Source: a virus
Reading direction: 5' to 3' (one strand)
Length of the DNA stretch: 32,051 nucleotides
Virus record (IMG/VR): IMGVR_UViG_3300020371_000034
Span: 1-32,051 of that record
Of the stretch, positions 879 through 26,900 are shown in pieces. Within the stretch, counting starts at the first letter, position 1, and each line of letters starts with the position of its first letter. Made by a program: the position numbers and the translations under genes. The notes under the pieces were generated by a model. That model did not search any database, had not been told where the DNA came from, and saw nothing but the letters and a program-made list of their open reading frames with translations.

Positions 879-1241
879 TTAGAAAGTCCCCGCATCGAGA
901 TGAATTTCATCTTCAACCTCATCAAGAATCTCATCAACAAAGTCTTGGGGCAATCCAGGTTGAGTAGTGCCATCAGCAGCTGCTACAGACAATACAGTAT
1001 CAGGATTAACAAAGGCATACTTCTGGATAGAAGCGTCCCATACCATAACATATTTGTCTGTTGTTGTTCCTGCTTTGTCAAGAGCAGAGGTATCGACATT
1101 ACCTAAATCTTCTACAGTTTGTGCCACGAGTTGCGTTGTTTCGATGGTGAAATTTGAATCTACTTGATTATTCAGTGCTGAGTCTAGAGTCACACTAGTC
1201 TCATTGTCATAAGACATGACGACTTGATATTCCTCTGCCAT
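879..1241 (-). CDS. Small virion-associated protein, 120 residues (function unknown)
   Basis: This is an acidic 120-residue protein. Residues about 45-90 carry the pattern VEDLGNVDTSALDK, then KYVMVWDASIQKYAFVNPDT, which resembles the short 'tunable' beta segments found in marine myovirus fibre and adaptor proteins. The C-terminus, FVDEILDEVEDEIHLDAGTF, is strongly acidic and could be a docking tail. The start ATG overlaps the upstream stop as TGATG, with GGAG seven bases before it, so the pair is probably translationally coupled. It sits between a beta-sandwich protein and the tail fibre gene, which suggests a fibre-attachment or fibre-assembly role. That is inference from position; I do not recognise a named family. 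Confidence 0.75.
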   Translation of the reverse strand: MAEEYQVVMSYDNETSVTLDSALNNQVDSNFTIETTQLVAQTVEDLGNVDTSALDKAGTTTDKYVMVWDASIQKYAFVNPDTVLSVAAADGTTQPGLPQDFVDEILDEVEDEIHLDAGTF

Positions 1242-1576
1242 CAGGTAACTCCAGGTGTAACAGTAACTTGTCCTTCAACCACTCTACGTTTTGCACCACC
1301 AATAGAGTTAGTGATAACAATGTCGTAAACATAACGACCTTCTTTCAACATACTTGTATTGAAAGAATCCAAGGTCAGTTTCAACTTTCCTGCAGTCCTG
1401 TCTAGGAATACAACAGCAAAGTTTGTTGACGTAGATGATGTATAGTTTTTCTTGATTTTGGCTTCTGCTGAAAAAGTGGTCAAATCTAAAGCAACATTGT
1501 TTGCACCAGAGATGGTGAAGGTTGCTTCAAAATCTGCCCTCTGCTCAACAATCAAATTAATTGGTATAGCTGCCAT
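1241..1576 (-). CDS. Ig-like beta-sandwich structural protein, 111 residues (function unknown)
   Basis: The reading frame can be extended to a TTG at 1585, but the ATG at 1576-1574 (MAAIPINLIVEQRADFEATF) gives the more natural N-terminus. The sequence alternates beta strands, including AEAKIKKNYTSS, GKLKLTLDS, LKEGRYVYDIVITN and RVVEGQVTVTPGVT. This fits a single Ig-like or jelly-roll domain. I remember small proteins of this pattern from other marine T4-like phages next to fibre genes, without a known function. It is the first gene after the hairpin at 1590-1617 that contains a late promoter, and it overlaps the next gene by one base. A structural role in fibre attachment is likely but inferred. 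Confidence 0.75.
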   Translation of the reverse strand: MAAIPINLIVEQRADFEATFTISGANNVALDLTTFSAEAKIKKNYTSSTSTNFAVVFLDRTAGKLKLTLDSFNTSMLKEGRYVYDIVITNSIGGAKRRVVEGQVTVTPGVT

Positions 1577-1589
1577 TGGATACAAGAAA

Positions 1590-1617
1590 ACCCTTCTTAT
1601 GTATTTATAAGAAGGGT
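1590..1617 (-). terminator. Terminator-like hairpin, 11-bp stem with 6-base loop
   Basis: CCCTTCTTAT (1591-1600) pairs with ATAAGAAGGG (1607-1616), and A1590 pairs with T1617. On the minus strand the stem is followed by TTTTCTT, a weak U-tract. It sits eight bases beyond the stop of the 92-residue gene, where a Rho-independent terminator would be expected. The stem also holds a late promoter (see 1602-1609). Confidence 0.65.
1602..1609 (-). promoter_or_regulatory. Late promoter inside the terminator hairpin
   Basis: The minus strand reads TATAAATA exactly. The element occupies the loop and the first pairs of the hairpin at 1590-1617. It lies 26 bases upstream of the ATG at 1576 and would drive the 111- and 120-residue genes. 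Confidence 0.65.
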
Positions 1618-1927: not shown

Positions 1928-1941
1928 TATTTATTATAGCA
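1928..1941 (-). promoter_or_regulatory. Overlapping sigma70-like extended -10 and late-type promoter
   Basis: The minus strand reads TGCTATAATAAATA. TGCTATAAT (1941-1933) is a perfect extended -10 element (TGnTATAAT), and AATAAATA (1935-1928) is one base away from the late element TATAAATA. No good -35 lies 17 bases upstream. It precedes the 92-residue gene and lies just after the stop of the 1758-residue gene. Which of the two elements is used cannot be told from the sequence. Confidence 0.5.
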
Positions 1942-1947
1942 CAGGTG

Positions 1948-4900
1948 TCAACTCAATACATAGTTTTTCTGTATTGTCAATCTATTCAAATAATCATTCT
2001 GGTTTGTTGCTGGTTGATAAACTAATCTTACCTGCCCACTTACAATTTCTGCTGTAAAACTACCTAGAGACCTATCATTGAAAATTGAAGCATATTCTGT
2101 CAAATAAACATCTGTGCCATCATGCAATACCAAAATCTTAGTTGAATGGAAATATGGATTCTGACTATTCTTCATTTGAATGAGATATTCAACGGTATTG
2201 ATATCACTAGCAACACCAAATTCATCAACAATAAGACTATTGGCGCTAGTAGAATCTACAACTTCTAGATTGTCACCAATTTTTACAATCTTGATAATAC
2301 CAAAATTCGCTGCATCTCCACCAGATTGATAGTATAAGAATTGTGGACTATCTTGAGGGACTGTAAATCTTACTAGGTCTCCAACATTGCCACTACCATT
2401 TCCCACAACACCATCAGAATATAAATTTGCTCCAATAGCTCCTGGTGAAGAAACAATATAGAATGGATGTCCAGTAACATTATCCAAACGGAAGACATAT
2501 TCTTTGCCAGCAACTAATTGTAAATCTGGAGTAGTGCCGTATGACTTACTAACATTTTCATCAAAAACTTGATATCTATTAGCAGAGATAGATATCTGAA
2601 ATGTAGGTACTCCAGCTACGCCGACACCAATTTCAATTTCTTGGGGATTAGATGCTAATGTGCCATTATTACCAAGTAATGTTTTGGGTGCGATGTTTTG
2701 CATCTTACCCAATGTAATAGATTTATCACGAATGTCTACTACATTTTGAGTATCAATGGTAAATCTATCATACAAGAAACTAGCAACACCAAGGTTACTA
2801 GACCCACTATTCTGACCTGTTGTATATCCAGCAGCATTGACATCTAATTCAACAAATCCACTTTCATTCAATTCACCAGCAGTTACCAAACCACCAGAAA
2901 TATAACTACCAGGACTACCTACTCTATCATAAGTAAATTCTGTTGTGCTAGTTACAGTAACTTCATATACACCGTTGAATGTATCAGGAATTACTTGCTC
3001 AACTTCTACATAATCGCCAGTAGTCAATAAATGTGCCGAAGCAGTAGTTAACGTGGCAGTATCAGAAGTCCAGGTAATGCCAGAAACAGTTAATGGTGTA
3101 CCAGTTTTCTTGAGTGTTTCTGCTGTGCCAACAACAGTAATAGCAGAGTTTGATGGAGGTAAAATACCTTTAACAACTGGTGTGAATTTATTCAGACCAT
3201 TTAAGTAGGTATCATCATTTGCAACACCAGTGCCTAATCTAGATGGTGAAATGAGACCAGAAACAATAGCAGCAGCATCCAACTGGTTGAGAGCAATCAA
3301 CTCCCAGTTATTTGCATCTGTGCCAGGTAATGCAGTTAGAATCCAAGTTTGGAGAAGTGTTAGTGGGTCGCCATCTGCTTCATTTTTCTGGATGACAATA
3401 TCACCTGCCTTTAGTGGGTCTCCAAGGAAACTTAAAGTAGCACCAGATGTTAAAGCTGGAATTGCCTGGTCAACCTCAATGGTTTTGTTAACGACATCAA
3501 TACCATTCTGGACAATTCTTGTGTTTGTTGGAATGTTAGTGCCAACAACAACTAAACCATCAGATAAGTCTGTTAAATCTGCCTCGTCTAATGTAATGAG
3601 ATATGGTGCTGTGGTTGTATTACTATCAACTGTTTTAGTTGCAACAGGAATATAATCTTGTAATCTTTCTGCTTCTGTTTCTACAGTGTATACAACGAAA
3701 GTCGATGTCTGTGGAATCTGTGAAGAATCAATCTTACCAGTAGCATCTAACTGGACAACTAGACCAGGAATACTAGACGTGCCTTTATTGAGACCAACAA
3801 AGTTTCCTAATACAGAAGATTTGTTGATGTAATCTCTAACTGCTTTTTGTGTAGGTAATACAGTATCAGATCTACCTACTGCTCCACCTAACTCATTATC
3901 TGGAGAGAATTCAAAAATTGGGACACCAGGAGACCCTTTAAGTTGTAGAGAATCTAAGACACCAAGTGCAACAGACCCATTAAATGTAACCTTACCACTT
4001 CTGAGGTTTACATTGAAGAAAGGACCAACACTAAAGTTACCACTTTGGTCTGTGGCACTGACATAAGTCTTACCAGAATTTACCTCAACATTTTGCTTAG
4101 CTGCATCAGTAATACCACCATTCTGTGGGAATGCAGTGTAGTTAATGCCAGTGCCAACATATTCAAAGGTATGTGAAGAGCTGTTTACCGTAGATGGTGC
4201 AAACAACTGAGCAGATGCATTGTTGCCAATAGAATTAACTTGTGCATCCGTAAGTGGGAAGTTAGTAGTAAACTCTGTAAAATTGCCAGCATCATATGAT
4301 AAAACTTCACCAACTACTTGCTCATTGCCTGTTGGGTCTAAACCCAGACCAGGAATCTTGAGGACGTAATTTGGAATAGGTGGTGCCTGATAACCAGTTA
4401 CATTAATCTTGGTGAAAACAGATCCTGATGCAATTTCAATTTCACCAGTAGTGCCACCATCAACAAAAGTTGCTGCGTCATATGCAACTTGCTCGACAAT
4501 AGAAATTTTATTATTTTGGAAATCAACAGTGTCGATTACTTTACCAGTGCCATTGATGTCTGGTGTTGAAATATGATTAGAAATGGTAACAGTTTGACCT
4601 CTCTCAAACTTACCAATATCAACAATAGAAACTTCAATGGTTGCTCTAGTTGCGGTACCACCTGTTTCTGATGAGAATACAGTGCCAACAATATCACTAG
4701 GGGCAGTATTAATATCTGTTTTGGTAATATTCTGGACACTAGATACTTGACCGCCAGCAAAAATAGGTAGAACATTCTCAGAGAAACCTACTGCCTTGAG
4801 ACCTTCAAAACCAAAGTTGGTAGCAGAGTTAGTAATAGATGCATAACCACCAGATTCTGCAAGAACGCCAACGGATTCAAAAACTTGGAAAATGGAAACT

Positions 4901-7224: not shown

Positions 7225-7436
7225 TACTTACCAGCTATTTCTCGTAGAAGATGTTTAATTTCGGACAATTCGCTTTTCAAAGTTTCTACATCTGACTGAA
7301 GATTTTTGATAATCCCTGAGGCAGATGTAGACCTCTTACTATTTTCAAATAAACTTTTATCTGTATTTATTATGGCACCAGTAGTATTATCACGGTAGAG
7401 GTTATCATGCCCCTCTACCCTAGAAAATTTATTCAT
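7224..7436 (-). CDS. Small coiled-coil protein, 70 residues (function unknown)
   Basis: The N-terminal half (KFSRVEGHDNLYRDNTTGAI) is polar and contains the phrase TGAIINTDKS. The C-terminal half (about residues 42-70, KNLQSDVETLKSELSEIKHL) is a clear heptad coiled coil. The start overlaps the stop of the 2836-residue gene (TGATG), and its own stop overlaps the start of the 1758-residue gene (TAATG), so the three are probably made together. A short protein of this pattern, with an N-terminal DNTTGAIINTD-like phrase and C-terminal coil, is familiar from marine T4-like phages but has no function I can name. A linker or assembly factor between the two giant proteins is a reasonable guess. Confidence 0.75.
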   Translation of the reverse strand: MNKFSRVEGHDNLYRDNTTGAIINTDKSLFENSKRSTSASGIIKNLQSDVETLKSELSEIKHLLREIAGK

Positions 7437-10400
7437 CAGTATGCCGCTACAATTCTAGCGTCTTGAATCTTAGGAGTGTAACAGGGGTTGGATGCCTTCA
7501 TAACAATCTTCACGGCAAGGGAAGAGAATTCACTCAAATCAGAAACACTATATTTGTGCTCTTTATATGAAGACTGCGATTCAAACAATCCTGAAATAGC
7601 TGCTTCATTTGAGGGAATGACTTCGATATCAGGACGACCAGTCTCATTGAATGCAACCCATTCAATATCATCAAAGACTAGTTGAGAGTTTACAGGTTTT
7701 ACCTTATAGTAAACTTCAACATCATCTTGTGCTGCCATGTTTGCCGTCAATCTAACTTCAATTGTTGTTGCTGGATTTGCAAGTGTTACTTCTTTGGTAA
7801 CATACTTGGAAAGTGATGTGCTATTCTTAGATGTGGTGTCTGGTGTAAATCCAACACCCTCACTATATTCAAATGATGCAACTTCAATAAATCCTGCAAC
7901 AGATTCATTTGTATCAGTTTGATTTTCTGGCTCAATTTTTTGGTGCCAAAGATTATCACCCACTCTAATAATATCACTAACTTGATTAGCACCACCATTT
8001 GAAGAATTTCTAGCAAAATCGCCAGTGTTGTAAGAATTATAGTCACCATTAATAGGTGCTTTTTCTTCTAGGATAGTAAGAGTTTCAGTTTTTTCATCCC
8101 AAGAAATAATCTTTCCGTAAATTTTTGTGCCGAATCTATCTGATAAGTTTTCTTGATATACTTCAACTTGAGTATTTGGAGTAAACTCACTTACAAATCT
8201 TGTAACTCCATCAGGGGAAACTGCCACTCCAGTATATGCTTGGACACCAAATGTCAAAGTCTCACCTGCTTGATATACGCTATTATTCGTAACTTTTACA
8301 TACACCGTAGAGCCTACTACTTTAACAATATCACCGCGACACTTAGATGTATCACCTGTAACACTCTGGTCTGTGGTTGGAATAATAGGATCTCCAGCTT
8401 GGTCAACAGGCAGGTTAGTTACAGTAAACTTATAAACTGGATAGAAAGATAGTAACTTGTATCTTCTTCCGAATCTTACTTCGTTACCTTTTGGTTTATC
8501 AATTTGTGTAGAAATACACTTAACAGAAGAAGACCTTAAATCAATTACTGGTGACAAATTATCTTTAGTTGTGCTAAACGTAAACTTGTAGCATAGAGAT
8601 TCGTCAATATTATTCTTGACCTCATTAAACGAAGATGCGATAACTTTCTGATTATCAAAGAAATGCTCTTCATTCAAGAAAGTGGTTTCATAGTCAGAAA
8701 CTTGATATGACGTATAATTTTCTCCAGGAGAATCTTGAGGAATAATATTTGTAGTCTTTACACTTACATTGAATGGAGTATCACTAAAAGAAAGATATCC
8801 AATCTCTGGATATAATTTTTCATATTTTCTATTATATGATGCCAAGACTTTACCACCGCCGCCAAAGGTGCTAGAGCCAGCACCAAGTATCGATGTAATA
8901 TTGTAAGAATTTAATCCAGAGTTAGAAACTTGGAATAGAGTATTGTTAATTGCCTCTGCTTCAATTCCTCCAACATCAGTTGATTGCTTGAAAGTAACAT
9001 ATGATTTTCCAGAATCTTCAAATCCACTATCTTTGTGAGAAACTCTAATAATTCTATTGTTATTTTTAAACAGAGTAGAATCTGCACTGTCATTGGATGA
9101 AGAATCTGTCTGGATTGGATTGAAGTCTAGTAACTCATATCCTAAATCTTCGTTGGTTAGGACGATATTTGCTGGTGTGTCAGTAACAAACACTGCTCTC
9201 TTCATTACAAATTTAATATCTTGATTCAAATCTTCTGTCCACGCATCTACATTTTGAGATCTATACACAGAACCTAGTAGAGGTTGCTGAGTAATTACTT
9301 GAGATGTTGAGATGTCAGTTTCACCCAACTTAGAAGACCATACTCTATAATCGGTTGAATCTGTCTCAATACCTAACGTATAATCTGTATTATTTTGTAG
9401 ATAAATTGGATTCTCGAAAGTGAATCGAGTTGGAGAAACAGAGTCTAAAGTTTGACCATCTTGTGGGTCAACAGAAACTCCCATTCTAACTGCAGGTGTA
9501 TCAATTTCCAAAACAGGATTGATGACTGCTTCTCTACTAATAGATCCGTTAGGTCTTAAGATAATAGATGGTGCATCAGTATAACCAGACCCCTCAAGGA
9601 GAATTGATGTGTTGTATACTTCACCATTAGAAATAGATATGTTTGCGGTTGCTACACTTCCTCCAGGAAGTTGAGGACTTTGAATAATTAAAGTAGCAGA
9701 ATCATATCCTTCACCATAATCAGAAATATTCAAATCAACAATACGACCAGAATCTTTTGCAATAGTTACAGATAAATTTGTATTATTGAGAGTATTATAA
9801 GTTTGTAGAGATGGAATAGATAATCCTTCATTTGGTTGGAATGGACTACCATCAATACTGGTATAATTTGAAATTACTAAAGTATAAACTTGGTCATTGT
9901 TTAAAGTGACCTTATTTTGTAAAGTTGGTAATAATTTATTTTTATTCTGGTCAAAGACTTCTTTAACAGTCCCCTTTACTCCAGAAACAGACCCAGCAAT
10001 AATTTCACCAATTTCCATTTCCAGAGTGCCACTTACATAAATCTGCAAGAAAGTATCTGAAGATTTAATCACTTCGCTACCTGGGACAACATATGTGCCA
10101 GGTTTGCCAGCATTGGTGTCTGTCAAATATATTTTTACTGGTAGAGAAGCACTCTTCTCTGCAAAGAATAAATCAACACTGGTAACAAAACAACCACCAT
10201 CCATATTTTCAACACGGAATGTCTGTGATAGTGGACTTGGTTTTGCTTGAGTTGATGCATTATCAATAAACTGCACACCTTCAGCACCTTTCAAAAATGC
10301 TGGAATTGTTGAAATGATAGATGCGGGTTGATTTGGATAATTGCCAGTAGCAAAATATTTACATTCTGCAAAACTATCGACACTATCGTCATTTGCGTCT

Positions 10401-13400
10401 TCTTCACTAGAAGTAAATCTGATGGTTTTGATTCCTGTTGAGAAATTCAATTGCTCAGCATCGTCCGATGTCTCGTAGCTAACGGAATTGATATCTCCAG
10501 TCCAAGAAGAATTTTGTAGAGGAGCAGATCCTGCAGGGAAAATTAATAGACCACTAGCATCGCCATTGTCGTCAGATTTAATAGAAGACCCATCAATGTT
10601 AGCTCCAAATGGTCCAAGAGAATTGCCTGGGATGCCAGTATACTTAACGTCCTGACAAACGTATCTAGATACATTTCTACCGTCAATGAAAGCATAGAAT
10701 TTAGTATTTGGTTTTAACCTACGAAGATTAAATTTAATTGCTCTAGACCTAACAAAAAGTTGTAAAGAAGAAGCGACTGTTTTCTTGCCTGATGAATTGG
10801 TTGTAATTCCTTTACCAATTTCATTATTCTGTGGACTGATGTTAGAAGACGTAGAAACCTTCGCAGCAACGACATTTGCTTCTGTATTTGTCGTAATGTC
10901 ATTCAAAGAACTAATATTAAAGAATGCTCTATCTGTGCCAATCCAGTTAGTGATGTAGAAATTATTGAGACTTGCATAACCTTCTCTAGCATCTGTCTTA
11001 TTGACAAACACGGAGAATACCTTGGTGTCATTATTCAGAATGTTTGGTGTTTGAGTGTCATCATACCAATGGTCGATAGATGGTGAAATAGAAGCATCAC
11101 CGACATATTGGACAACTACAAATGGATTTGGATTAATCTTGCCATTTGCTGTTGCAAACTTATTGGAAACAAAATCCTGAGTTGCATATGGAAGAGTCAA
11201 TACTTCACCAGTCTTTTGATAACCAGCAACAGACCTTTCTTGATTTGTCGTAGTTGTCTCTTCTAGAGCATATGAATTTTCGACAGTTGGAGAAGTCAAA
11301 ACAGACTGTTGGGTGTCAATAGAGCACTTGTAGTCAAATGATTTCAAGTTACCAATCGCATGATTCTCAAAATTGTCTACAATGATACCAGACTTAAATC
11401 TATCAAGTCCTACACTGTCTTTAATTTGAGTATTGAATGTTTGTTGCTCAAGAATACTTAGGGTAGTGTAATATTCTAAACGCTCGACACGTTTTTCCAA
11501 CTTGCCAATATCACGCATCGTATAACGACGATTATCAATCGGAGTCACACGAATGTCTTTGACATTTTCAGTGAAAGCTGGTAAAAATAGATAATATAGA
11601 GCAATAGCGTCGTCAGGAGATTCTGGTTTAGATGGGTTTAGTGATGAATTCCCTTTTTTGACAATAAAGTCTCCTTTCTTATTGAGGAAGACACCATCAA
11701 TTCTATCTAGATATTGCTTGCTGTTGAATCCAAAAGTAAATTCTAGATTCTCGTCATGAGCAGGTGTTGCAGAAGGAATACCACCAGACCCATTAAATGA
11801 GATAGTATTGTTACTTGCTAATAACGCCTTGTCTTGGAATCCAGAAATAATTGAGTTAACATCGACCTTAGGTCTGAAGTCAACTAAGTCGGCAAGATAA
11901 ACTCTACCTAAAGAAGGTGAATTAAAGTATGGAATATCTGTTGTTGGGACACCAGTGAGAAGATATGAATCGACAGTGCAGAAATCACCAGCAGAATGCT
12001 CAAAGTAATTGAATACAATAACTACTTGACCAGATGGAGCATCAAATCCAGGTTTCAATACCAATCTAGAAACATCATAGAATGTATCTCTTTGACCATC
12101 GTCAAATGTAAATCTGTCAGTTACATCATAACCTTCAATTACATTGTTTTGGTCATCTAGAGTAGGTGGATTGGATACAGACCCCTCGAAGACTTTAATA
12201 TCGGTGCCATAGGTGCCAAATACATCTGCATATGAAACAACATCTGCTGTCTTGGCATCATAGTCATACCCACGGAAAGGAATGACTTTATCGCCAGATG
12301 ATACGACAACGATTCTTTTATTTCTAATGGCAGTTTTGGTTTTTGGTGATGCCTTAGTAACTTCAATGGTTGCAGTTAGTTTTAATACAACATTTGATGC
12401 TGAAGAAGCATCATTCCTGAATGTCAAATTATCTAAAGTGATAGAAACACCACCAGAAGATAATGCAGATACTTGGTCTCCAGTGATATACATGATATCA
12501 CCATTCTCTAGACCAGTGTCTGCATTTCCTTTATCTAAAACTGTGAGCAAGAAGTTGCTTTCTCTAAAATCAATAAACTGCTGTGTGCCAAACTTTAATT
12601 GTGCAGAGAAAGTGATTTGACCACCAGATGTAGAAGATGTAGTAATGAAATCTCTACGAATATAATATTTAATCTTGGTATCATCGCTATCTTCAATTAG
12701 ACTACTAGCAGATTTAAATCCTAGTGGGAATAGTAAAGAAGCGTTTTCTGGATTTGTAATTTTATTTCTTTTTCTTACAAGAGTTGCATTAACAACATCC
12801 TCTCGAAGAGCAGTATCTAAATGAATTTGACCTCTCACCAATCCACTTGGAGGAGTAATTCTCTCTACAATATTTCTTCGTAATGTATCTGTAGAATCGA
12901 TAAACTCGACAATATCACCAGGAAGTAAATCTACAGTAGGATTACCAGAGAATGCTAAGCAAGTAAGAATTTTTTTGCCAGCAGATCCTTCAAAAGATGA
13001 TGTGGTTACATCTTTGCTGGATGAGTAAGAATTCTCAAAAGTTTCTACGTCCGCACTGAATTTATTAATTTCACCATCACCAAATTCAGAGAATACAGAT
13101 TTTACATTTTCGTTTGTATATGTAAAGACAGTATTTCTATACAAAACAGCTCTAACCACTGCTGATGTTGGTGTAACACTAGTGTCATGCCTAACAATTA
13201 CATTTGGAGTAGAAACATATTCTTCATTTAGTGCTTTTCTGTCAATAATATCAACTCTGATTACTTTTCCACCTTCAATAACTGGTTTTGCGACAGAGAC
13301 ATCAATATTTTTTCCATCAACACTCAGGGGTTTTGTCGCAATGTCTGATGTTGCTTGGGAATATTGAGACCCTCTCTTAGTAACAACAAAATGAGAAATG

Positions 13401-15946
13401 GTATTTTCTTTAGCAATTCTTAAAACATTGCCAGATTCGTCAATAATAGTTTCTCCAGGTATGAATGTGCCATATACCATCTTGACATGTAAAGTGGTAT
13501 AAGACGAATATGAAGAATCAGCAGCACCTTCTACTACAGCATATGCTTGACTGGTTTGACCAGTGATATATCTACCTGCTGTAAATCCTGCAGTTACTGG
13601 GGAATCTAAAGTTAATTTTGTAAAGAAAACTGGATTGAAATATTCAAGTTTAAAGATAGAATTGTATACTGCATCGCCCGCAGCATTTCTACCTTTGGAA
13701 AGAATTTTATCAGTTTGCTCATTAAATCCAGCCCCTCTGGAAAGCATTGAAATATTTTTTGGTTTGCAAATGCCAATTGTTGGAGAGATTAATTCGCTAT
13801 AGTCAACAATTTCACCATATGGGAAAATTTTATTTCCTTGTGAAATTGGCACAGTAAGAATGATATTGCCAGAAGCTGCTTGTCCTGGATTTGTTGGAAT
13901 TACATATTCAAAATATTTTGAAGATAATCCATTTGCTAATACGGTAGCGCCAGTTTCGTTGTAATCTGATGGAATAGCACCCGCAACAGTGATAGTATTG
14001 CCAGCGGTCAAACCGTGGTCAGTAACGGTAGTTACTTTTGCAATATATTCATTTACACCAGCATTAACTCGCACCTCATAATCCATGCTAGCCACTTGGA
14101 CTTGAGTGCCACTTTGTTGGAAATAATAGTTTTGTGCTCGGAAAGCGCCATCATCCGTAGCATTTCCTGATGTCCTTGTAAACAGTTGTCTCCTTTTTAC
14201 ATCAGCTCCAGAAGAATTTCCTAGTGCTAGAGGAATAAAATCTAAATTGTCATATTCAATAAATTTCGATTCTAATTCTCTCTTAATACCCAATACTGTC
14301 AATTCTAGATAAATTTCACCACCAATATCATCTGGTCTGGTTAGTTGAGAGAATCCAATAACTTCCACATAATCAACAGCTGTGCCAGCTACAGTTTGCG
14401 CTAGGTCTGATACATACCACAATTTAGTGCCTAGAATGCCACTATAATCCGCTGCAGGAGACTTTGCCTTGAGGTAGATAGTCTTTACCCCATAATCATG
14501 AATTAAATTAGTTTTATTGGGAGACTTGAGAGCTTGTCCTCTTCTACCTAAAGTTTTTCTAGTGCCAGAATCGCCATTATATCCAAGATATCCGTCATTA
14601 AACAATCTAGACATATAGACTGTTGGATATGATGACAGTTGATTGCCTTCCGAATTTAAAGGGACTGTGCCATAAATGTTGGTTACATTGAAATATGGCG
14701 TGCCATATGTTTTAATTTTGTTATTTTCTTTAACTAAAACATCTCTAGCTTTGTCAATTTCTAAAAATTTAGTTTCTTTATTAACTAACTCATAACCTCT
14801 GACATATGCTTTACCAGACCCAACACCAGCTACTAATTTTGCTTCCGAAACTTCTTGAGAATAAGATTTGGGACCAACAGTGCCATCAACTCTACTTGGA
14901 TATAAACCTTGATTTCCCTTTCTCTGCCAGTATTCTCTTAATTCGATTGGGAAGTTATCTACAACATAATCACCAGACTCGTCATAAGTCCTTCTAGCTA
15001 GAGTTTCCTCTAAAATATTGTATTCTTTTTTATTAACTTTCTTCTGAATTACACCAAGTCTTAGAGTGAGTAACTCAATGAAGTTATCACCTGTATCAGC
15101 ATCTAACTCAAGTGCTTTTAGATTTAAATTAATTTGTAATCTATGCGCTCCAGGAGCAGCATAGTTTGATGACCCTCTAGCGTTGTCATAGAGAGTAATG
15201 TCTTTTTCTGGAGTGATTAACTCTTCTTCGATTTCAAAACCAACCTTTGCAGATGGTTGAGAATAATACTTATCAACAACTAGTAGACTTTCTGCACACT
15301 GCACAAAGAAACCATTGACAAAGTAAATACCTGTTTCTACCTTAACAGCAGAAGCATATCCCATTGCAGGACTATCAATTAGTGTTGCTTCTAGAGTATC
15401 TGGATTTACACTAGTAACAGATGATGGCAATGAGCTACCATCTGTGCCAACAGTAAGAATAGGACTGTTAGCAATGTTTACTTCTAACTCTTCACCCTGT
15501 CTAAATTTCGCTTCACTATCATCACCACCACTGATATAATTGACAAAAATGGTATCAGATTCTGTCTCTGACCCATATGCTGCCTCAATTACAATTGCCT
15601 GTACACCAGAAGTTAATCCAGTGAGGGTGTAACCGATGAGGTCTTTAATGTCATACTTATTAAATACGACTTCCCCACCCACATTCTCAGCAACCTCGGA
15701 AACAGAGGCAAGTTTTACATAGTTGAGTCTGTTGTTAAACGAGACTTCACCAGGAATAACCTGTTGCCCCTGTTTGAATTGGTATTTTCCGAATTGCTCA
15801 ATCTGATTCTGTAGAATCGATTGTAATGTAGTTAACTCCCTAGACTGAATAGAGTATCCTGGTCTAAAAAGGACTTTGTAAAAGTTTTTAGACGCATCAA
15901 AATCGTCATTATACTCTTTGGTATTTAAGTTGGTATTTTGTGGCAT
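7436..15946 (-). CDS. Giant baseplate/tail structural protein, DUF4815 type, 2836 residues (gp9/gp10 position)
   Basis: The N-terminus (NDDFDASKNFYKVLFRPGYS, then SRELTTLQSILQNQIEQFGK) is the hallmark of the DUF4815 phage structural family, and that homology continues for several hundred residues. Near residue 1475 a helical stretch (DIGKLEKRVERLEYYTTLSI) is typical of these proteins. Near 1755 is KFYAFIDGRNVSRYV. Around 2090-2130 are GEGY/GSGY beta modules (ISDYGEGYDSATLII, LLEGSGYTDAPSIILRP). It follows gp8 after a 40-base gap and occupies the place of T4 genes 9 and 10, so it probably forms the outer baseplate that carries fibres. I see no direct sequence similarity to T4 gp10, so the equivalence is positional. 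It is much larger than T4 gp10 (about 600 residues). Confidence 0.8.
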   Translation of the reverse strand: MPQNTNLNTKEYNDDFDASKNFYKVLFRPGYSIQSRELTTLQSILQNQIEQFGKYQFKQGQQVIPGEVSFNNRLNYVKLASVSEVAENVGGEVVFNKYDIKDLIGYTLTGLTSGVQAIVIEAAYGSETESDTIFVNYISGGDDSEAKFRQGEELEVNIANSPILTVGTDGSSLPSSVTSVNPDTLEATLIDSPAMGYASAVKVETGIYFVNGFFVQCAESLLVVDKYYSQPSAKVGFEIEEELITPEKDITLYDNARGSSNYAAPGAHRLQINLNLKALELDADTGDNFIELLTLRLGVIQKKVNKKEYNILEETLARRTYDESGDYVVDNFPIELREYWQRKGNQGLYPSRVDGTVGPKSYSQEVSEAKLVAGVGSGKAYVRGYELVNKETKFLEIDKARDVLVKENNKIKTYGTPYFNVTNIYGTVPLNSEGNQLSSYPTVYMSRLFNDGYLGYNGDSGTRKTLGRRGQALKSPNKTNLIHDYGVKTIYLKAKSPAADYSGILGTKLWYVSDLAQTVAGTAVDYVEVIGFSQLTRPDDIGGEIYLELTVLGIKRELESKFIEYDNLDFIPLALGNSSGADVKRRQLFTRTSGNATDDGAFRAQNYYFQQSGTQVQVASMDYEVRVNAGVNEYIAKVTTVTDHGLTAGNTITVAGAIPSDYNETGATVLANGLSSKYFEYVIPTNPGQAASGNIILTVPISQGNKIFPYGEIVDYSELISPTIGICKPKNISMLSRGAGFNEQTDKILSKGRNAAGDAVYNSIFKLEYFNPVFFTKLTLDSPVTAGFTAGRYITGQTSQAYAVVEGAADSSYSSYTTLHVKMVYGTFIPGETIIDESGNVLRIAKENTISHFVVTKRGSQYSQATSDIATKPLSVDGKNIDVSVAKPVIEGGKVIRVDIIDRKALNEEYVSTPNVIVRHDTSVTPTSAVVRAVLYRNTVFTYTNENVKSVFSEFGDGEINKFSADVETFENSYSSSKDVTTSSFEGSAGKKILTCLAFSGNPTVDLLPGDIVEFIDSTDTLRRNIVERITPPSGLVRGQIHLDTALREDVVNATLVRKRNKITNPENASLLFPLGFKSASSLIEDSDDTKIKYYIRRDFITTSSTSGGQITFSAQLKFGTQQFIDFRESNFLLTVLDKGNADTGLENGDIMYITGDQVSALSSGGVSITLDNLTFRNDASSASNVVLKLTATIEVTKASPKTKTAIRNKRIVVVSSGDKVIPFRGYDYDAKTADVVSYADVFGTYGTDIKVFEGSVSNPPTLDDQNNVIEGYDVTDRFTFDDGQRDTFYDVSRLVLKPGFDAPSGQVVIVFNYFEHSAGDFCTVDSYLLTGVPTTDIPYFNSPSLGRVYLADLVDFRPKVDVNSIISGFQDKALLASNNTISFNGSGGIPSATPAHDENLEFTFGFNSKQYLDRIDGVFLNKKGDFIVKKGNSSLNPSKPESPDDAIALYYLFLPAFTENVKDIRVTPIDNRRYTMRDIGKLEKRVERLEYYTTLSILEQQTFNTQIKDSVGLDRFKSGIIVDNFENHAIGNLKSFDYKCSIDTQQSVLTSPTVENSYALEETTTTNQERSVAGYQKTGEVLTLPYATQDFVSNKFATANGKINPNPFVVVQYVGDASISPSIDHWYDDTQTPNILNNDTKVFSVFVNKTDAREGYASLNNFYITNWIGTDRAFFNISSLNDITTNTEANVVAAKVSTSSNISPQNNEIGKGITTNSSGKKTVASSLQLFVRSRAIKFNLRRLKPNTKFYAFIDGRNVSRYVCQDVKYTGIPGNSLGPFGANIDGSSIKSDDNGDASGLLIFPAGSAPLQNSSWTGDINSVSYETSDDAEQLNFSTGIKTIRFTSSEEDANDDSVDSFAECKYFATGNYPNQPASIISTIPAFLKGAEGVQFIDNASTQAKPSPLSQTFRVENMDGGCFVTSVDLFFAEKSASLPVKIYLTDTNAGKPGTYVVPGSEVIKSSDTFLQIYVSGTLEMEIGEIIAGSVSGVKGTVKEVFDQNKNKLLPTLQNKVTLNNDQVYTLVISNYTSIDGSPFQPNEGLSIPSLQTYNTLNNTNLSVTIAKDSGRIVDLNISDYGEGYDSATLIIQSPQLPGGSVATANISISNGEVYNTSILLEGSGYTDAPSIILRPNGSISREAVINPVLEIDTPAVRMGVSVDPQDGQTLDSVSPTRFTFENPIYLQNNTDYTLGIETDSTDYRVWSSKLGETDISTSQVITQQPLLGSVYRSQNVDAWTEDLNQDIKFVMKRAVFVTDTPANIVLTNEDLGYELLDFNPIQTDSSSNDSADSTLFKNNNRIIRVSHKDSGFEDSGKSYVTFKQSTDVGGIEAEAINNTLFQVSNSGLNSYNITSILGAGSSTFGGGGKVLASYNRKYEKLYPEIGYLSFSDTPFNVSVKTTNIIPQDSPGENYTSYQVSDYETTFLNEEHFFDNQKVIASSFNEVKNNIDESLCYKFTFSTTKDNLSPVIDLRSSSVKCISTQIDKPKGNEVRFGRRYKLLSFYPVYKFTVTNLPVDQAGDPIIPTTDQSVTGDTSKCRGDIVKVVGSTVYVKVTNNSVYQAGETLTFGVQAYTGVAVSPDGVTRFVSEFTPNTQVEVYQENLSDRFGTKIYGKIISWDEKTETLTILEEKAPINGDYNSYNTGDFARNSSNGGANQVSDIIRVGDNLWHQKIEPENQTDTNESVAGFIEVASFEYSEGVGFTPDTTSKNSTSLSKYVTKEVTLANPATTIEVRLTANMAAQDDVEVYYKVKPVNSQLVFDDIEWVAFNETGRPDIEVIPSNEAAISGLFESQSSYKEHKYSVSDLSEFSSLAVKIVMKASNPCYTPKIQDARIVAAY

Positions 15947-17899: not shown

Positions 17900-17913
17900 T
17901 ATTTATATTTATA
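17900..17913 (-). promoter_or_regulatory. Two overlapping late promoters upstream of gp8
   Basis: The minus strand reads TATAAATATAAATA, which contains two exact TATAAATA elements (17913-17906 and 17907-17900) shifted by six bases. They lie in the 56-base gap between the 3206-residue gene and gp8, and would give leaders of roughly 30-40 bases. Confidence 0.75.
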
Positions 17914-17917
17914 CCAA

Positions 17918-20900
17918 TTAGAGCGAACTTCTCAAGTAGTCACCTGCATTATGAGTAGAGCCTTTGGTCATTACATATTCATAAATTTCTGCTGTATCAT
18001 TGCCAATGACAAACATCTTATTTCCTTCTGGTTGTGCATAAACACCATGTGGATTTGTAGTTGTGCCAGCAACAACTCTAGTAGCAGTAAGTGATGCAGA
18101 TGTGATATCCCATGGAGTTGTCATGGTGTATTCATAGACAGAATCATTTTGTGTGCCACTTACGAAGAATTTTGCACCATTTGGATGGAAAGTAATACCT
18201 AATGGAAGGTTATCCTCAGTATTAACACTGAATGTAATATTGTCATAAGATGCTGTAGATACATCCCATGGAGTTGATAAAGTGTATTGGAATACCGCAT
18301 CTGCAGATGTGGTGCCACCACCCATAATAAACATGGTAGTGCCATTATCTCTGATATAAATCTGCATTGGAGTTTGCGAAGCACCAGTATCGACAACAAA
18401 ATCATTACTACTGTATGATGCTGTGCTCAAATCCCATGGAGTTGCCAAATCATATTCAAATACACGCTTGTCACTATTTGATACCGAGCTACTTCCACCA
18501 ACATACATCTTATGTCCTGTTGGACTTAGATATAAACCTTGAGGATTGAAATCTTCACTGACAATACTGAATGAATTAGTAACTGATGCAGTTGTGATAT
18601 CCCATGCAGTGGATAGAGTATATTGATATACAGAATCAGTATTGGTGCCAATTATATACAGATATTCTCCATTTGGAGAGAAATAGATGTCTCTAGGTCC
18701 ATTTGCAGATTCTTCGTTAGATACATCAAAGGATATCCCTACATACGATGCAGTATCTAATTCCCAAGCACCTAGATTTTTATTAACACCTCTAGTGACT
18801 TCAGTAAATCTATCAGACGCCTTAGATGCATAATGCACCACTTCATCGCCAATCAATAATTTACCAGAGCTTGGGAATCTACTAGTGTCTTGGATGTAAA
18901 TAGTAGAATCGGTTTCATTCATCGGAATCTGCAGCAATGCACCATGCTCATTGATTGTTGGCCAGGTTAATTTCCAATTAGCACCATTTGCACCAAGAGA
19001 GGACTCACTTCTATTAGCAAAATCACCTATCGTGATGGTGGGGTAGTAAACTAACATTTCTTGGAGAGTATTTTGACCACTAATTGGCAATCCATTATAT
19101 GTTGCAACACCCAAATCTTGACTAAACTTGATATTCTCATATACAGAGAATCTATTACCCAATTGTGCGAATTCATACTTATCTTCATCAACACTACTGC
19201 TGAATACGTCGCAAGCACCGAATTCAACTTCGACAGTAACAAGTTTCGTGATTTGGTCAATGCTACTGACATCAAAATCAGTTGTGATTCTAGAAGTCCT
19301 CTGGAATTCAACCACAGAAGACATGCTGAGGACATTGACAGATGCATCTAATATCGTAACAATTTCTCTTTCAGATTGAGTAATTGAAACTTCAACCGAT
19401 GGAGGAGTTAATATAATAGTCGGCTCAACTTCAATTTTTTGATATTTGACATCAATAACTGTATTGATATCTGGGACCAACTTAGACCCAATATCCAACA
19501 AGAACCAAGAAGTTAAATTAAAATTGGACTTGATAATTGGTTTTAGAATCAAATCTGTCCTAGATTCAATTACCTTATCTGGAGTCCTGAAGATATTATA
19601 TCCTCTAGTAATGAAAACTTTTGGTGGAGCAGAATATTCACTACCAGCACTAGTCAATACAACATCAATAATTTCACCACGATTCATGACAACAAATCCT
19701 GATGCACCACCACCAGTTACAGGACCAGTGATGTTTCCATATTCGTCTCTTGGAGGTTGTGGCACAAACACTAATTTAGGTGTTTCTGTGTAACCAAATG
19801 CGTTTGGCTGAATGTTTATATTTTCTTTAATTAACTCTGCAGAATCTTTATTTGTAATATTAAGTCTTTGACCAGATCTTAGTAAAACAGTAGTCTGAGA
19901 TGCTAAAGAAACCAATCCTGCTCTAGTAGAAATAATTTTTGGAATTAATACACCAACGTCATCTCTAGATACAAACTCTTTATAGTTGCGTTGATTCCAA
20001 CTGATAGCTTTAACTTTGCCATCAGATATCTCGGCTAATACACTAAGACCAATGCCAGCAATCTGACCATTGTAATCAGTGACTCCAACTTGTGCCCAGT
20101 GATTATCCTTAATTAAGTCTTCTTTTCTATGACCAAGTTTTTTAAGAATTTCTGGGATGAGAAGGACTTCACGGTATTCATCCTCACCATCAACTTTAAT
20201 TTTATCTCCAACATTAATGTTATTCTTATAAGCAGGTGTCAATTCAGTGTTAAACATCCATCCTGCTTTAGTTTTAAACACTAACTCATTTCTTTCGTCA
20301 TCTTCTTTATAATCAGTGAAAGAAATAATCTCATTTGCATCAATAGTAAATTCATTAACAGGATATTTGTAGTTGGTTAATTTCAGTGGATATGATGGGT
20401 CGATTTTGCAGTTTTGCTGTTTGAAAATAATTCTTAAAGTAGGATTGCCTTGCCCGTCAGTACTAGCAAATGAATTGAGAATTTCACCAACAGCAAACCA
20501 CTCACCAAAAGAATTGCCTTGGTAAACAGTGTTATATTGAATTAATTGCTCATTACTAATAAACGCGCTAGAAATTAAATCAACAGTATTGAAGAATTTA
20601 TTGTTTTCATAATTATAGAAAGTTAATTTTCTTTCTGTTTCTCTACCAAAGATGTATAAGATGTTTATAATCTGTCCTGGTCTTGGAGCTTCTGCAAATG
20701 TAATCGTAGACCCTGTAACAGAATATGCACGATTTCTAATTTGTAAAACACCCTCGATAAAGACTAAGATAGTCCTATCATTATTGACCGTGACCGTTTG
20801 ATTGCCTAATACCGTCCTCATAATAAAAGGACCTTTTCTCACACCATCATACAAGTCTGTCTCTAAGTAAATTCTTTCATAACTAGAGATACTGTATGCA

Positions 20901-23900
20901 AAGAATCTGGTGTAATTAACATCATCAAGTCTCCTAGGAGCATCGATGAATACAATCTGATTTGGTGTTACAGTCCTATCAATATAATAAGATGAAAATG
21001 CAGGAATCAGAGGAGTCATCTTATTTTCCTGAATGACACCATCCAAGGAAACTAGTAAGTTTTCCTTAGCATCTAAAACAACATCTGTGCCATCATCATA
21101 GTATAATGGGAATCTCGTAGATACTCCATCAAACTGCTCTTGAATATTTTTAATCTTTCTAAAGTATTGATTGTTAAGAGCATCATTCTTAAACTTAACT
21201 AATCTACCAACAAATTTCTGTGCTTCGATTTGTTGATTATTTGCAACTCTAGGACCAAGTGGTGCTTTAGCGAAGGTAAGCACAGAACCAGCAACAGTGT
21301 ATGCCACTCCAGGTTCTTGGACTACACCATCAATAGTGATAAAGAGATTGTTAATGTTGCCAACATTTAAAATACCACTGCCTGGTAACACCATGTTGAA
21401 TGATGTTCTACCGACAATATTACCAGCTTCATCAAAGTCTCCATCGAAAGGTTGCTGCAACTCAAATTGATATGATTGCAATTCAGTAGTATCGATACCA
21501 GATACCAACACACTACCTTTACCTCGGACAACATTAGTATCCTTGACGGTAATTGTATTCTGTGTCAGTTGGATTCTGGTGCTGGTAATAGTCGCTTTAT
21601 TCTTCTGTGGGTCCCACAATTCAATTTTGCTAATATTTTCTATCTTTGGTTGCCCAACAGGCATTTTTGTTGGAGCTGAAGCATCAATCGAAACTTCGCC
21701 AAACATTTTAAATCCAGCTGGGTGGACAGTCTGTTTGACGAGTTTTTTCCAAATATTAATAGGACTCTTCGATTTTACAACGTATGAATAGTCCTGATAG
21801 AAATATGAATCTGCTAATTTTTGACTATATGAAGATGGTTGTCCTCTGTTTGTGTCAAAATAACCAGCATTATCAAAATATGATTTGATATCTGGATTGA
21901 ATAATGAAAAATATACATTGGTTACATCTACACTCTTATTGAGGAGATTGCCAACAACAGGAAGTCCTGCTTTAAACTCACCAACAACATTTTCTACTTT
22001 TAAGAAATTTTTCCTATAATCATATCCATCTTTTGCTAATTGACCTTCAGCAATTAAGAATCCCGCATCATATTGTTTGATAATTTCACCATTTAAGAAA
22101 TTCTTTTCATCAAGATTAGTTACTTGTAAAATTTGATGAGATGTGAATAATGTAGAAATAGTATTATCATTATAATAAGCAGTGCCATTATAAGAAATCT
22201 TGATATTATTAGGAGCACCAATAGTGTTACTTCCAAAATAAACTTTTACATCACTTTCCAAAACATAAACTAGTGGTTTTTGTGTGAAAGTATAATCTTT
22301 TTCTGCGATAATCGCAATAATTTCACCATCATCACCAATTACAATATTAAATGGTAAATATACAGGATTTCCATTATCCACCAATAACACTCTTGGTTTA
22401 GAATATCCTGACCCAGAGTCTCCTATTGAAATAGATAGAATTTGGTTAGTTTTTTCGCTGTAATTCAATACAGGGTTGCATCTTTTTGTAGAGGATGGCA
22501 AAACACCAAATGTATTTGGTAATTTTTTATATTCCTTTCCTGCATTCACAATAGATACTTTGTCTATCTCACCGATAGCAAAAATTGAATTTGTGGTGTA
22601 AGAAAAACTTCCTGACCCATCATATGCAGGAATAGCATTTAAATTATATGCGAAAGAATTTGGAGAAACATAAATTACAGTTTTTTCTCCTTGTAGGGGG
22701 TCATCTACTAATGAAAGGTAGCTATCATCGGAAGTAACAACACCTGCCTTATCAAAGTAGTAGTAATTAGTAAAATCTACTTGTTTCTTTTCAGTGTAAG
22801 TATTTGTCGGAGAAGCATCACCAAAACCAAATCTTACTGAGATAAATGAAGTGTTTTCGTCTCCCGTGCCAGGAAGTAGAGATCCTTTAATTGATTCTGT
22901 AGTAATAATGTTTTTATTTCTACTGGGAGAGAATTCCAAGAAAGACCCGCCCATTGACGAATCACTAGTAATAAACTTATAACGATAAAACTTTTGTACA
23001 GGGATAATTGGGTTTGGAGTCCATGGACCTGTATTGTTATCTTTTGAAAACTCGAATTTATACGCAGAAGGAGAAACTACACTATCGATAACAACATTTT
23101 TTGCTGGAGTGCCATTATCAGTAAAAGATGAATTAAATGTGAGTTGCTCAATAGAATCTAAAGATTGGTCTAAATCATAAATTACTGTCAATTCTTGAGA
23201 AGATTCATCGTAATATTTTACTATTGGACTACCAGTGCTAGACCCTAGACTAGACCCTTCTGTGAAGGTATATGCTCCAGACAAGAAAGTAACAGTATTA
23301 CCATCAAAATGATTGGTTTTGGAAGTATTATTTACTCCTCTCAATACAGTTAAATTATTATCAGATACTGAAGTAACTTTTACATTTTCTTGATTAATTT
23401 GTAAAACATCATCTACCGATACACCATTTGCATCATCAACAATCAATACACTATCATTAGCGCCGAATCCAACGTGACCAACTTCAATATAAAGATATGA
23501 TTGACTTACAGATCCTGCAAGTCTATTTAAATCACTATCATCTACAACTAAAATATCACCAATCTTATATCCACTACCCTTTGATGTGATAGTAACATTT
23601 GTTACCTTATTGCCAGAAACTGTAATAGTTGCTTTTGCGTTACCAGAAGCACCTGGACCACCAACAAACGAAGATGCTGCCGATACAATAAATCCACTAT
23701 CATCTCTTGTGCGTGTTTGGTCTGCGAATAACAATTCGACATCTGTATAAACATTATCAGTATAATCGTCCCCAGCATTTAATAGTTTAGTTGCACCAAT
23801 ACCTGTATCATTGATAGATGTGGATAGTTGAGGAGAGAATAATTTTACCGTTTGATAAATTCTTCTTCTTACATGATAATCAGTAGTAGTTACTGCGTCA

Positions 23901-26900
23901 TCTGGAGTAATGTCAACATTAATTTTATCTCCAAACGTAACACCATGTGGAGTAGAAGTAGTAACTAGTCCAATATTATCATTCAATTCAAAAATTTCTA
24001 CATTTTTACTCAATTCATCTACTTGAGAAATTCTAGCACCAATAGTGTCATCTAAGGAATCACTGCGTAAGTAGAAATCATTTGATGCTGTGAAGTCTCC
24101 ATCATCTACTCTAACCTTCACAGTATTGCTAGCGATTGCTCTTTCTAGAATTAGACCTTTACCAATTACGCTGGTAGCGACAACACCAAATGAAGCTTCT
24201 GGTGTTAAACTAATTGGTGTGCCATTAGGTGTAGAAGCAATTTGGAAAGAGTTTACAGTCGAATTAATTACATAGTAAATTACGTCTTCCGTGATACCAT
24301 TTTTAGTCTGTGGAAAAGCAATTCCATCACCATCTTCAAATGGATTGGATGCAACTCGTAAAGTATCAGAAGAAATTGACAACACAACAACTTCAGTGCC
24401 ATTTGTCAATCTAACTACAGTATTTTCTGTGAAGAAAGATTCTGTGTCAACAATTAGATTCAAAATTCTTAAGGAGGAATCTAATTGTGCGGTTGCATTA
24501 AATGTGCCAGAAACATTTCTCAATACAAAATCATTTGATGAAAAAACATCCCCAACTACTTCACCAGAGGCATTTGTACCTCGTTGTGTGACAATAGATT
24601 TGTCGAAAAAGTATACAGGATTTTTAGAAGTAATTTTTACTGCCTTTACTTCTGTAGATTCGATAGAAGTGACAGTTTTACCTTTTAAACTAGAAATCTC
24701 ACTAACTAATCCATTTCCATTAGTATTGCGATTGTCAACAAAAACTTGATTGCCTACAGAGAAATTGCTTGGAGAAGATTCGACCAAAGCAGAAGTTACA
24801 GTGCCCTCTCTAGTAGTCTCAATAATCGCAGAAGCAGAAACACCGTTATTTGGAGTAATAGAAGTTTTTAACCTTCTGGATTTACTAGAGACATTAGCTT
24901 GATTGATAGCAGAGTTATAATTAGACTCAACTGGAATGGAATAGAATCTTTCACCTAGAATATATGGGAATATTGGTGTCCCACCAGCACTTACAGTAAT
25001 AAAGTAAGCATATACTCCATTTGGGTAATCTGGCGTTACACAATATCGACCATTATTCTCATCTAGGTCGCCAAAACGGTGCTGATAGTAATAATCAGCA
25101 ATAAATGTCCCCAATGGATAAGTTGCTTCATCTGGACCATCAGAATCACGTCTATTTTTGATTCTCCAACTAGTAAGCATTCTGTCAATGCCAGAAGTTG
25201 GGTCTAGAGGGTTGCTATATCCATATGGACCATAAATTGGATTTCCATCATAGGCATAACCAATAATTGGTGAATGTGCATTAGCGTTAGTATCACCAAG
25301 AGAATTTCTTAGAGAAACTGGATTTCCAAGATGTGCATAACCGTTTCCAAATGATTTTGTAAAATTCTCAAACAAATAACCGTTTTCAGAATCAACATTT
25401 GTTACTTCATATCTATTTTTCTTCCAACGCTTTACAGAAGCGGTAGCTTCAGCACCTTTACCGACAGCAACGACTTCTACACTCACATTTGCTTGTGTAT
25501 AGAATTTACCTTCGGCAATTTTGTCAAATCCTACTAATTTGCCTTCATTCGACACAATAGCATTATATTCCGCCAATCTACCACTATTCATGGAATCGCG
25601 GATAACAATCAGGGGAGGAGATGAGTAATATTCACCTGGGTCAACAATTGTTAGTTTAGTTACCTTATCTTTAGTAACCGTTGCCGTAACAATTGCACCG
25701 CGACCAGAAGTAATCGTAACTGCTGGGTTTGAATTGTAGTTTTTACCAGGACTTACGACTTCAATACGCTCAACAACCTCTCCAGAGAGAATTGCTTTAC
25801 CAACTGCTTCTTTATCGCCATCAATTACTACAAAAGGTGCTGCTTTGTATCCACTACCCTTTTCAGTGACCTTAAAACTCTCTACACCACCGAATACAAC
25901 ATCGTTTGCGTCATAATCCTTATAACCATAAGCAACTACGCCATTTAAGAAGATACCAATGTCTCTAGTTGGCGTTGGATACAATTCTGTGTTTCTAATC
26001 GACTCTTTACGAATCAATTTAAGGAATTTTTGGTCGCTTGGCGTTAAATTAGTAAAAGTGCCAATACTATAAGAGGGAAGACCTGAAGAAGCAATGTAAT
26101 AGTATTGCTCGTCTTCGTAAATTGCTTGTACATCAGTTAATACCTCAGTTAATCCTGCAATGTTACTCTTTGTGGAATTATTGTTAATATTCCATCTAAC
26201 AGCAGATTGTGATTTGTCATAAATGACAGTATTTCTTGTCTCAAATCCTGAATCGCTAACTTGAATGACATCACCCTCTGTAGAGTAAGGATTTGTGTCC
26301 TTTAGATTCAATCCATACAAGACACCATAACAAACAAATCTTACAGTGTATTCTACACCATTTTCTTCATAACTAGCACTAAGATTAGCATAGTTATACA
26401 CAGGAGTGTTGACTGGATAGTCGCCATTTCCATTTCTAGCGTCAACTACAAATTGATTAACGTTTTTATCTTTAAAAGTAAACGTCTCATTGCCAATTTG
26501 AAGCTGTCCCTTTACGTTTTTCCATCCAGTGGTAGAGAATACATCAATTCTATTCCCTGTATTGACAGATGGAAGTAATCTTTGAGTTAAAAACGTTTTT
26601 TGTGCTACAGCAAACTCACCAACAATAGTTTCTGGCGCTAGAGCAACTTCATAGATACTCTCATCATCAAAATTGCCTAAAAAGTTGACATTATCAATAG
26701 TTGCAAACGCATTACCAACGCTATCGTTGTAAACGTCTTCTTCTTGTCTCAATACCTGTCCAATTACCTTATTTGCATCTCCAGATAAGACTTTTACTCT
26801 TAAGGCAAACTTATTAATCCAGTCTGAAGTAGATGCTTTAAGTGTATTTTCCTTAGGATAGTAAATTGAAGGAATATCTTCAGCATCTTGAGCAACAATC

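Follow-up and report, generated by a model that had tools for sequence, protein, structure and literature searches.

A late promoter motif enclosed in a terminator-like hairpin upstream of virion genes in T4-like marine phages

In T4-like marine phages, a single hairpin at the boundary between two transcription units probably acts both as an intrinsic terminator and as a gp55-type late promoter. The stretch of DNA in which we studied this arrangement, referred to here as the window, is a viral record of 32,051 bases, taken as a whole, and a genome fragment of such a phage. In the gap between two of its genes, a perfect hairpin of 11 bp with a 6-nt loop encloses an exact copy of the late promoter motif TATAAATA. 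A preliminary description of the window had pointed out this combination; the sequence itself and comparisons with shuffled sequences bear it out, and the hairpin with its enclosed late promoter is confirmed as real. Geometry, promoter motif, pairing, recurrence in relatives and covariation can all be read from the sequences directly.

Results and Discussion

Architecture of the element

The genes around the hairpin are encoded on the minus strand, on which the elements follow each other in the order ACCCTTCTTAT AAATAC ATAAGAAGGGT TTTCTTGTATCCA ATG (Table 1). Upstream lies a small gene, homologous to the one that precedes gp13 in leaders of the S-PM2 type, whose product appears coiled-coil-like when its sequence is judged by eye. 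Downstream, at a distance of 48 nt from the small gene, follows a gene resembling those for tail fibre assembly, with 13 nt between the end of the hairpin and its ATG at 1576. The baseplate gp6-like protein of the window is most similar, among the matches listed, to those of the Synechococcus phages S-B43 (58% identity) and ACG-2014i (56%). The baseplate/tail region also contains two giant open frames on the minus strand, of 2836 aa (7436-15946) and 3206 aa (17918-27538), and two overlapping tandem copies of TATAAATA (TATAAATATAAATA) are found at 17900-17913 on the minus strand, ahead of a 624-aa gene.

Table 1. Features of the window around the hairpin, and groups of related loci with other designs
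Feature	Position or loci	Strand	Details
Hairpin	1590..1617	minus	5' arm 1617-1607 (ACCCTTCTTAT), loop 1606-1601 (AAATAC), 3' arm 1600-1590 (ATAAGAAGGGT)
Late promoter TATAAATA	1602..1609	minus	exact match; positions -13 to -6
Predicted late start (+1, G)	1596	minus	in 3' arm; from T4 spacing and sequence
T tract past the stem	1583..1589	minus	TTTCTTG; TTTTCTT when counted from 1590
Downstream gene, L-shaped tail fibre assembly-like (T4-like GC 211)	1241..1576	minus	PHROG 3304, E 4.5e-28; annotated homologues
Upstream small gene, 92 aa	1625..1903	minus	PHROG 580; tblastn and blastp between contexts
Composite box TTGACA-N7-TATAATAAATA	1928..1951	minus	upstream of small gene; 1 match, 0 expected
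AAGGAG loci	L008-L015, L026, L028, L031-L033, L039, L041		upstream of fibre-assembly gene; late RNA predicted to begin at ribosome site
Alternative layouts upstream of gp13	L446-L449, L454, L456, L457, L459-L470		strong terminator with T tract running into TATAAATA, or promoter as base of 5' arm

Three of the eight letters of the promoter motif close the 5' arm and the other five belong to the loop. The preliminary description placed the motif across the loop and the right arm, which holds for the plus strand; read on the functional, minus strand, it covers the left arm and the loop. Judging by the motif and its location shortly before a late gene, 25 nt ahead of the fibre-assembly-like ATG, it fits a T4-type late promoter.

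Late promoters of T4 are described as extending from -13 to -6 (PMC1524935), the cyanophage late motif is given as NATAAATA (PMC2984593), and g55 is stated to be present in all cyanophages sequenced at the time of that review. With the T4 spacing, the predicted +1 falls into the 3' arm, and the late RNA, whose predicted leader measures 20 nt, would thus be unable to re-form the hairpin. The notion that transcripts started inside the hairpin escape it is therefore in line with the promoter geometry, and also with fold predictions, in which the unpaired fraction of GAAGGG in the 3' arm is 0.00 for read-through RNA and 0.69 for late RNA.

Hairpin and promoter coincide more closely than expected by chance

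That hairpin and promoter overlap accidentally and without function is hardly credible. The frequency of TATAAATA alone would be compatible with it, being at chance level in the window (4 copies found, 3.0 expected). However, when the flanks of a fixed promoter were shuffled (30 nt on the upstream side, 40 nt on the downstream side), an enclosing stem as strong as the observed one (score 17.3) arose in 0 of 20,000 flank shuffles and a stem of score ≥12 in 21. The RNA fold of the region, computed on the plus strand, has a z-score of -3.94, with 0 of 200 shuffles as good. There is also a clear strand bias: all seven copies of NATAAATA in the window, six of them intergenic, are on the coding strand and none is on the other. 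When terminator-like hairpins from 13 genomes and the window were compared, eight contained NATAAATA on the same strand and one had it on the opposite strand, this one being among the eight, read backwards. The flank shuffles and these counts, together with the recurrence, scan and covariation results given below, led us to reject chance. An automated terminator scan listed the hairpin on the plus strand only, and probably missed it on the minus strand through greedy stem extension, which swallowed the T tract.

We further scanned for the pattern TATAAATA N8 GGG N TTTTT, leaving the 5' arm free. It was present in at least 120 stretches, with 119 loci read, and sites were kept only if 30 nt lay upstream, giving at least 117 usable ones. 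At least 26 of these had an enclosing stem of score ≥12, whereas exchanging the upstream parts between sites gave 2.9; since some are near-identical copies, and the same element on several contigs does not yield independent copies, the at least 26 sites are not independent events. Other contexts found in this way were baseplate hub lysozyme genes, with two further arm pairs (L285, L216), and a group (L238 and its kin) with ACCCGCCTATA arms before an unassigned gene.

Occurrence upstream of fibre-assembly and neck genes

Homologues of the fibre-assembly-like gene were found at 42 loci, 40 of which could be read at the gene start; L040 and L042, where the match begins within the gene, were excluded. 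Seven of the 40 leaders (L001-L007) have the hairpin followed by a T tract. Among these, L007 carries a different, still complementary arm pair (CCCCTCGTAT / ATGCGAGGGG) with TTTTTT behind it. In the remaining 33 there is a late motif but no perfect hairpin, a number that includes 15 loci with an interrupted ribosome-site hairpin.

The second gene associated with the element is gp13, which encodes the neck protein (PHROG 211). The identical 26-mer is present in 17 viral-contig stretches, seven times ahead of the fibre gene and ten times ahead of gp13. We evaluated two sets of gp13 leaders, S-PM2-type and G001-type, which were counted separately and may overlap. The S-PM2-type set comprises 79 of 80 loci (41 distinct leaders), L423 being excluded because it begins within the gene. 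In 76 of the 79, terminator-like hairpin and late promoter are combined, and three layouts occur: the promoter core lies within the hairpin, which is followed by a T tract (57), the promoter forms the base of the 5' arm (12), or a separate terminator has a T tract that abuts the promoter (7). The other three have no hairpin, where L326, with one mismatched pair, was scored as lacking one. In the G001-type set, made up of the best 80 of 598 loci, the three layouts are represented by 6, 5 and 4 leaders, respectively; one more has an embedded promoter without T tract, 23 have a promoter but no detected hairpin and 41 have no promoter. These counts make the element lineage-specific rather than obligatory. 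The search for hairpins with an embedded motif in related phages, which the preliminary description had proposed as a check, was thus successful for both genes.

In named phages, reading the leaders directly revealed the element before gp13 in Syn1, S-RIM44, S-H9-2, Sf-FR1, Sf-CH11, Sf-CH3, ACG-2014j and ACG-2014i, and it is also carried by locus L410. In S-PM2, where 52 bp separate p092 from gp13, it takes up most of this gap (66785-66817 in AJ630128); the late motif reads GATAAATA there and CCTAAATA in ACG-2014i. The gp13 leaders of the cultured phages S-CAM7, Syn9, Melnitz-1, P-HM2, S-SM2, P-SSM4 and S-B43, and those of S-CAM3 and G004, are without the element, and in the close relatives L310 and L312-L314 the promoter and the 3' arm are kept but a matching 5' arm is absent.

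An alternative function of the hairpin would be to shield the upstream mRNA at its 3' end, or to provide a processing site, with the promoter overlapping it because gaps are short. The 48-nt gap of the window, in which hairpin and promoter must share space, speaks for this. Yet all three gp13 layouts link a hairpin with T tract to the promoter, and the promoter core stays in the loop region across differing loop sizes, even though space could be shared without nesting. We consider this explanation very unlikely.

Covariation of the stem

The covariation analysis was limited to 9 equal-length gp13 elements, out of 13 elements of all contexts, because the alignment of all 13 shifted the arms by one column. 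In these nine distinct but related sequences, which are a small sample, 98.9% of cells are paired (reached in 0 of 500 shuffles), and the covariation score is 0.311, compared to 0.139 on average in the shuffles (none of the 500 as high) and to at most 0.067 in slid controls. Two stem pairs change on both sides, one between U-A, C-G and A-U and the other between C-G and G-C; six stem pairs never vary, and the loop core TAAATA is invariant. The number of cells with a double change was equalled in 1 of 500 shuffles. For the number of pairs with a double change, 386 of 500 shuffles were as high, and for that of further pair types 374 were; as neither count exceeds the shuffles, the support lies in the score, the cells paired and the cells with a double change. 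The promoter letters appear to be under selection, and so does the pairing.

The compensatory changes also bear on the proposal that the hairpin serves mainly for recombination or as the boundary of a module, with a secondary role in transcription, similar to the PeSL cassettes discussed below. The genes upstream of the exact 26-mer vary; in G003 an additional gene separates the small gene from the hairpin. G001 has hairpins before both its fibre-assembly gene (34281) and gp13 (49787), separated by roughly a dozen open frames, and the small gene preceding the first of them is the one that directly precedes gp13 in S-PM2. These observations would suit an exchange of modules, but the two G001 hairpins have different arms, and arms kept by compensatory change are not required for recombination driven by identity. 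As the main role of the hairpin, we therefore find recombination quite unlikely. The G001 hairpins (34281-49787, tiles L088-L089) are about 15.5 kb apart and flank the fibre-assembly gene with its neighbours. Possibly this interval is a swappable fibre module, and a behaviour of the hairpins as module boundaries is a lead rather than a result.

Termination and translational control

Rho-independent terminators consist of a stem followed by a T tract. The element of the window resembles them in its stable stem with a T tract behind it, and differs in that this tract is marginal and that the loop region is a promoter. The preliminary description had called the tract weak, and the terminator d scores agree: the window is near zero (-5.1 or 2.1, depending on how the stem is defined), the relatives L003, L004 and L007 reach 16 to 23, and the frequent gp13 variant L393 reaches -10.6. 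In L003-L006, TTTTTTT takes the place of the TTTTCTT of the window. Taking the three leader sets together, 70 of the 71 perfect promoter-enclosing hairpins are followed by a T tract. The reading of the element as a composite of terminator and promoter, which the preliminary description had put forward, is supported by this comparison with relatives, from which we infer termination, late initiation and the separation of units in infected cells.

The hairpin could instead act on translation. In T4, the e (lysozyme), soc and I-Tev genes are described as having late promoters within hairpins at their ribosome sites (PMC3014915, PMC2988022). By analogy, the hairpin of the window would hide a Shine-Dalgarno-like sequence that late RNA exposes, and termination would be minor. 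The GAAGGG of the 3' arm, paired in read-through RNA and mostly open in late RNA, is consistent with this, but it ends 14 nt before the ATG, a large distance for a ribosome site, and the region around the ATG of the window is paired alike in the two RNAs (0.47 vs 0.44). Moreover, many gp13 leaders have an SD-like AGGTG that is downstream of the hairpin and outside it, and a T tract is not needed to hide a Shine-Dalgarno sequence. Its presence in all but one of the perfect hairpins and the external AGGTG favour termination over ribosome-site hiding as the probable role.

Translational control is also suggested by a different clade of fibre-gene leaders. At 15 of the 15 loci examined, the promoter is located in a hairpin whose 3' arm carries a Shine-Dalgarno-like AAGGAG at -15, with a predicted mean unpaired fraction of 0.03 in read-through and 0.77 in late RNA, and there is no T tract. 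The T4 e and I-TevII sites are recovered by the genome-wide stem count given below. We predict that this clade represents control of the T4 lysozyme type in marine phages; the Melnitz-1 leader resembles its design. On account of these ribosome-site hairpins without T tract we retain translational control as a rival explanation for the element of the window, albeit an unlikely one. One and the same gene thus has either design, depending on the lineage, and the shared theme would be that upstream transcripts are silenced and late transcripts are free.

Frequency of enclosed late promoters in whole genomes

We also considered nesting in a hairpin as a general rule for late promoters, and rejected it, as few late promoters are enclosed genome-wide. 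Counting perfect stems of score ≥9 around exact copies of TATAAATA, we found none in S-B43 (0 of 11), ACG-2014i (0 of 9), S-PM2 (0 of 12), Syn9 (0 of 9), Melnitz-1 (0 of 25), P-HM2 (0 of 10), S-SM2 (0 of 8) and P-SSM4 (0 of 16), one in S-CAM7 (1 of 32) and some in T4 (6 of 32), G003 (4 of 20), G001 (2 of 10), G004 (2 of 12) and the window (1 of 4). With the reversed motif as control, the counts were 2 of 12 in G003, 3 of 24 in T4, 1 of 15 in Melnitz-1 and otherwise 0. The gp13 elements of S-PM2 and ACG-2014i are missing from this count because an exact TATAAATA was demanded, from which their motifs differ. The first tile of HTVC008M (L096) and the G002 tiles were left out of the comparison. 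Two sites in S-B43, at 54765 and 182244, look like coincidence, the latter overlapping the end of a gene that faces an opposing gene.

A model for the element and its input

We propose the following model. Polymerase arriving from the upstream small gene would transcribe both arms, so that the hairpin could fold in the RNA, and a share of the read-through transcripts would terminate at about 1590-1583, within the T tract. At the late stage of infection, initiation by the late holoenzyme would take place near 1596, beyond the 5' arm; the resulting RNA would contain just 7 nt of the 3' arm, would not fold and would continue into the fibre-assembly-like gene. One transcription unit would thereby be ended and the next begun within about 35 bp.

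What is read into the hairpin may differ between lineages. Upstream of the small gene, the composite box of the window has a sigma70-like TATAAT overlapping the late motif. Of the eight sequences formed by the window and L001-L007, all have TATAATAAATA and seven have TTGACA, and the box is possibly a dual early/late promoter. If so, the small gene may be transcribed in the late phase as well as before it, and in the window and L001-L007 the hairpin would restrict the fibre gene to late expression. The box is absent from the 30 distinct S-PM2-type leaders, 26 of which have plain late motifs before the small gene, so that the hairpin would there separate two late units. Blocking of early read-through is not supported as a universal purpose for this reason, the sigma70-like/late composite being confined to the clade of the window.

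A more speculative variant of the model, which we think improbable, is that polymerase releasing its RNA in the T tract stays on the DNA some 15-25 bp beyond TATAAATA, returns to it by diffusion and restarts there upon binding gp55. In vitro, E. coli polymerase retained after intrinsic termination reinitiates (PMC6978380). If this applied here, the terminator would feed its own promoter late in infection, the nested form would be the tightest use of reinitiation, and the closeness of hairpin, T tract and promoter in all three layouts would be explained.

Comparison with known systems

The element shares one half each with two known types of control. With T4 e, soc and I-TevI it has in common a hairpin whose 5' strand contains the late promoter and which, here by prediction, is formed by upstream transcripts only. 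What the hairpin conceals in T4, however, is the ribosome site or AUG, whereas in the window a T tract follows the stem and, unlike in T4, many gp13 elements have their SD-like sequence outside the hairpin. The second type is PeSL, a name associated with Arbiol 2010 and Comeau 2014 that stands for promoter-early stem-loop, the promoter being an early one of sigma70 type. PeSL cassettes of T4-like phages are described as a terminator stem-loop joined to a promoter (PMC4503421). As in PeSL, a compact, here predicted, terminator hairpin and a promoter lie between genes; in contrast to PeSL, the promoter is a late one nested within the hairpin, and the element has virion genes as neighbours. PeSL is associated with the exchange of neighbouring genes, and in the relatives of the window upstream genes differ and G001 has two hairpins. 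Of the sigma70-type promoter sites predicted in the window, none of the best 60 of 78 lies in the hairpin. As neither definition fits fully, the element is best called a variant.

In its exact motif, on the coding strand and ahead of a virion gene, the promoter is a typical TATAAATA / NATAAATA late promoter of T4 and cyanophages, for which the available portions of the published accounts (PMC2984593, PMC1524935) describe no nesting in a terminator. In the literature searched, which was available in part and from which the PeSL papers themselves are excepted, we came across no account of cyanophages in which a terminator hairpin has a late promoter nested in it.

Conclusions

The element is conserved in several lineages and mechanistically sensible, its function being suggested by comparison alone. 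The arrangement recurs in many related marine viruses, of cyanobacterial and other bacterial hosts, while the letters of the hairpin differ, and a cultured phage, S-PM2, carries it. Annotating promoters and terminators separately would miss such joint elements. In the parts of the literature available to us, control of cyanophage late genes is treated mostly in terms of promoter motifs. The element would link the hairpin-escape trick of T4 to termination, and a nested terminator-promoter before gp13 and the fibre gene would offer a simple rule for separating transcription units in the dense genomes of T4-like phages.
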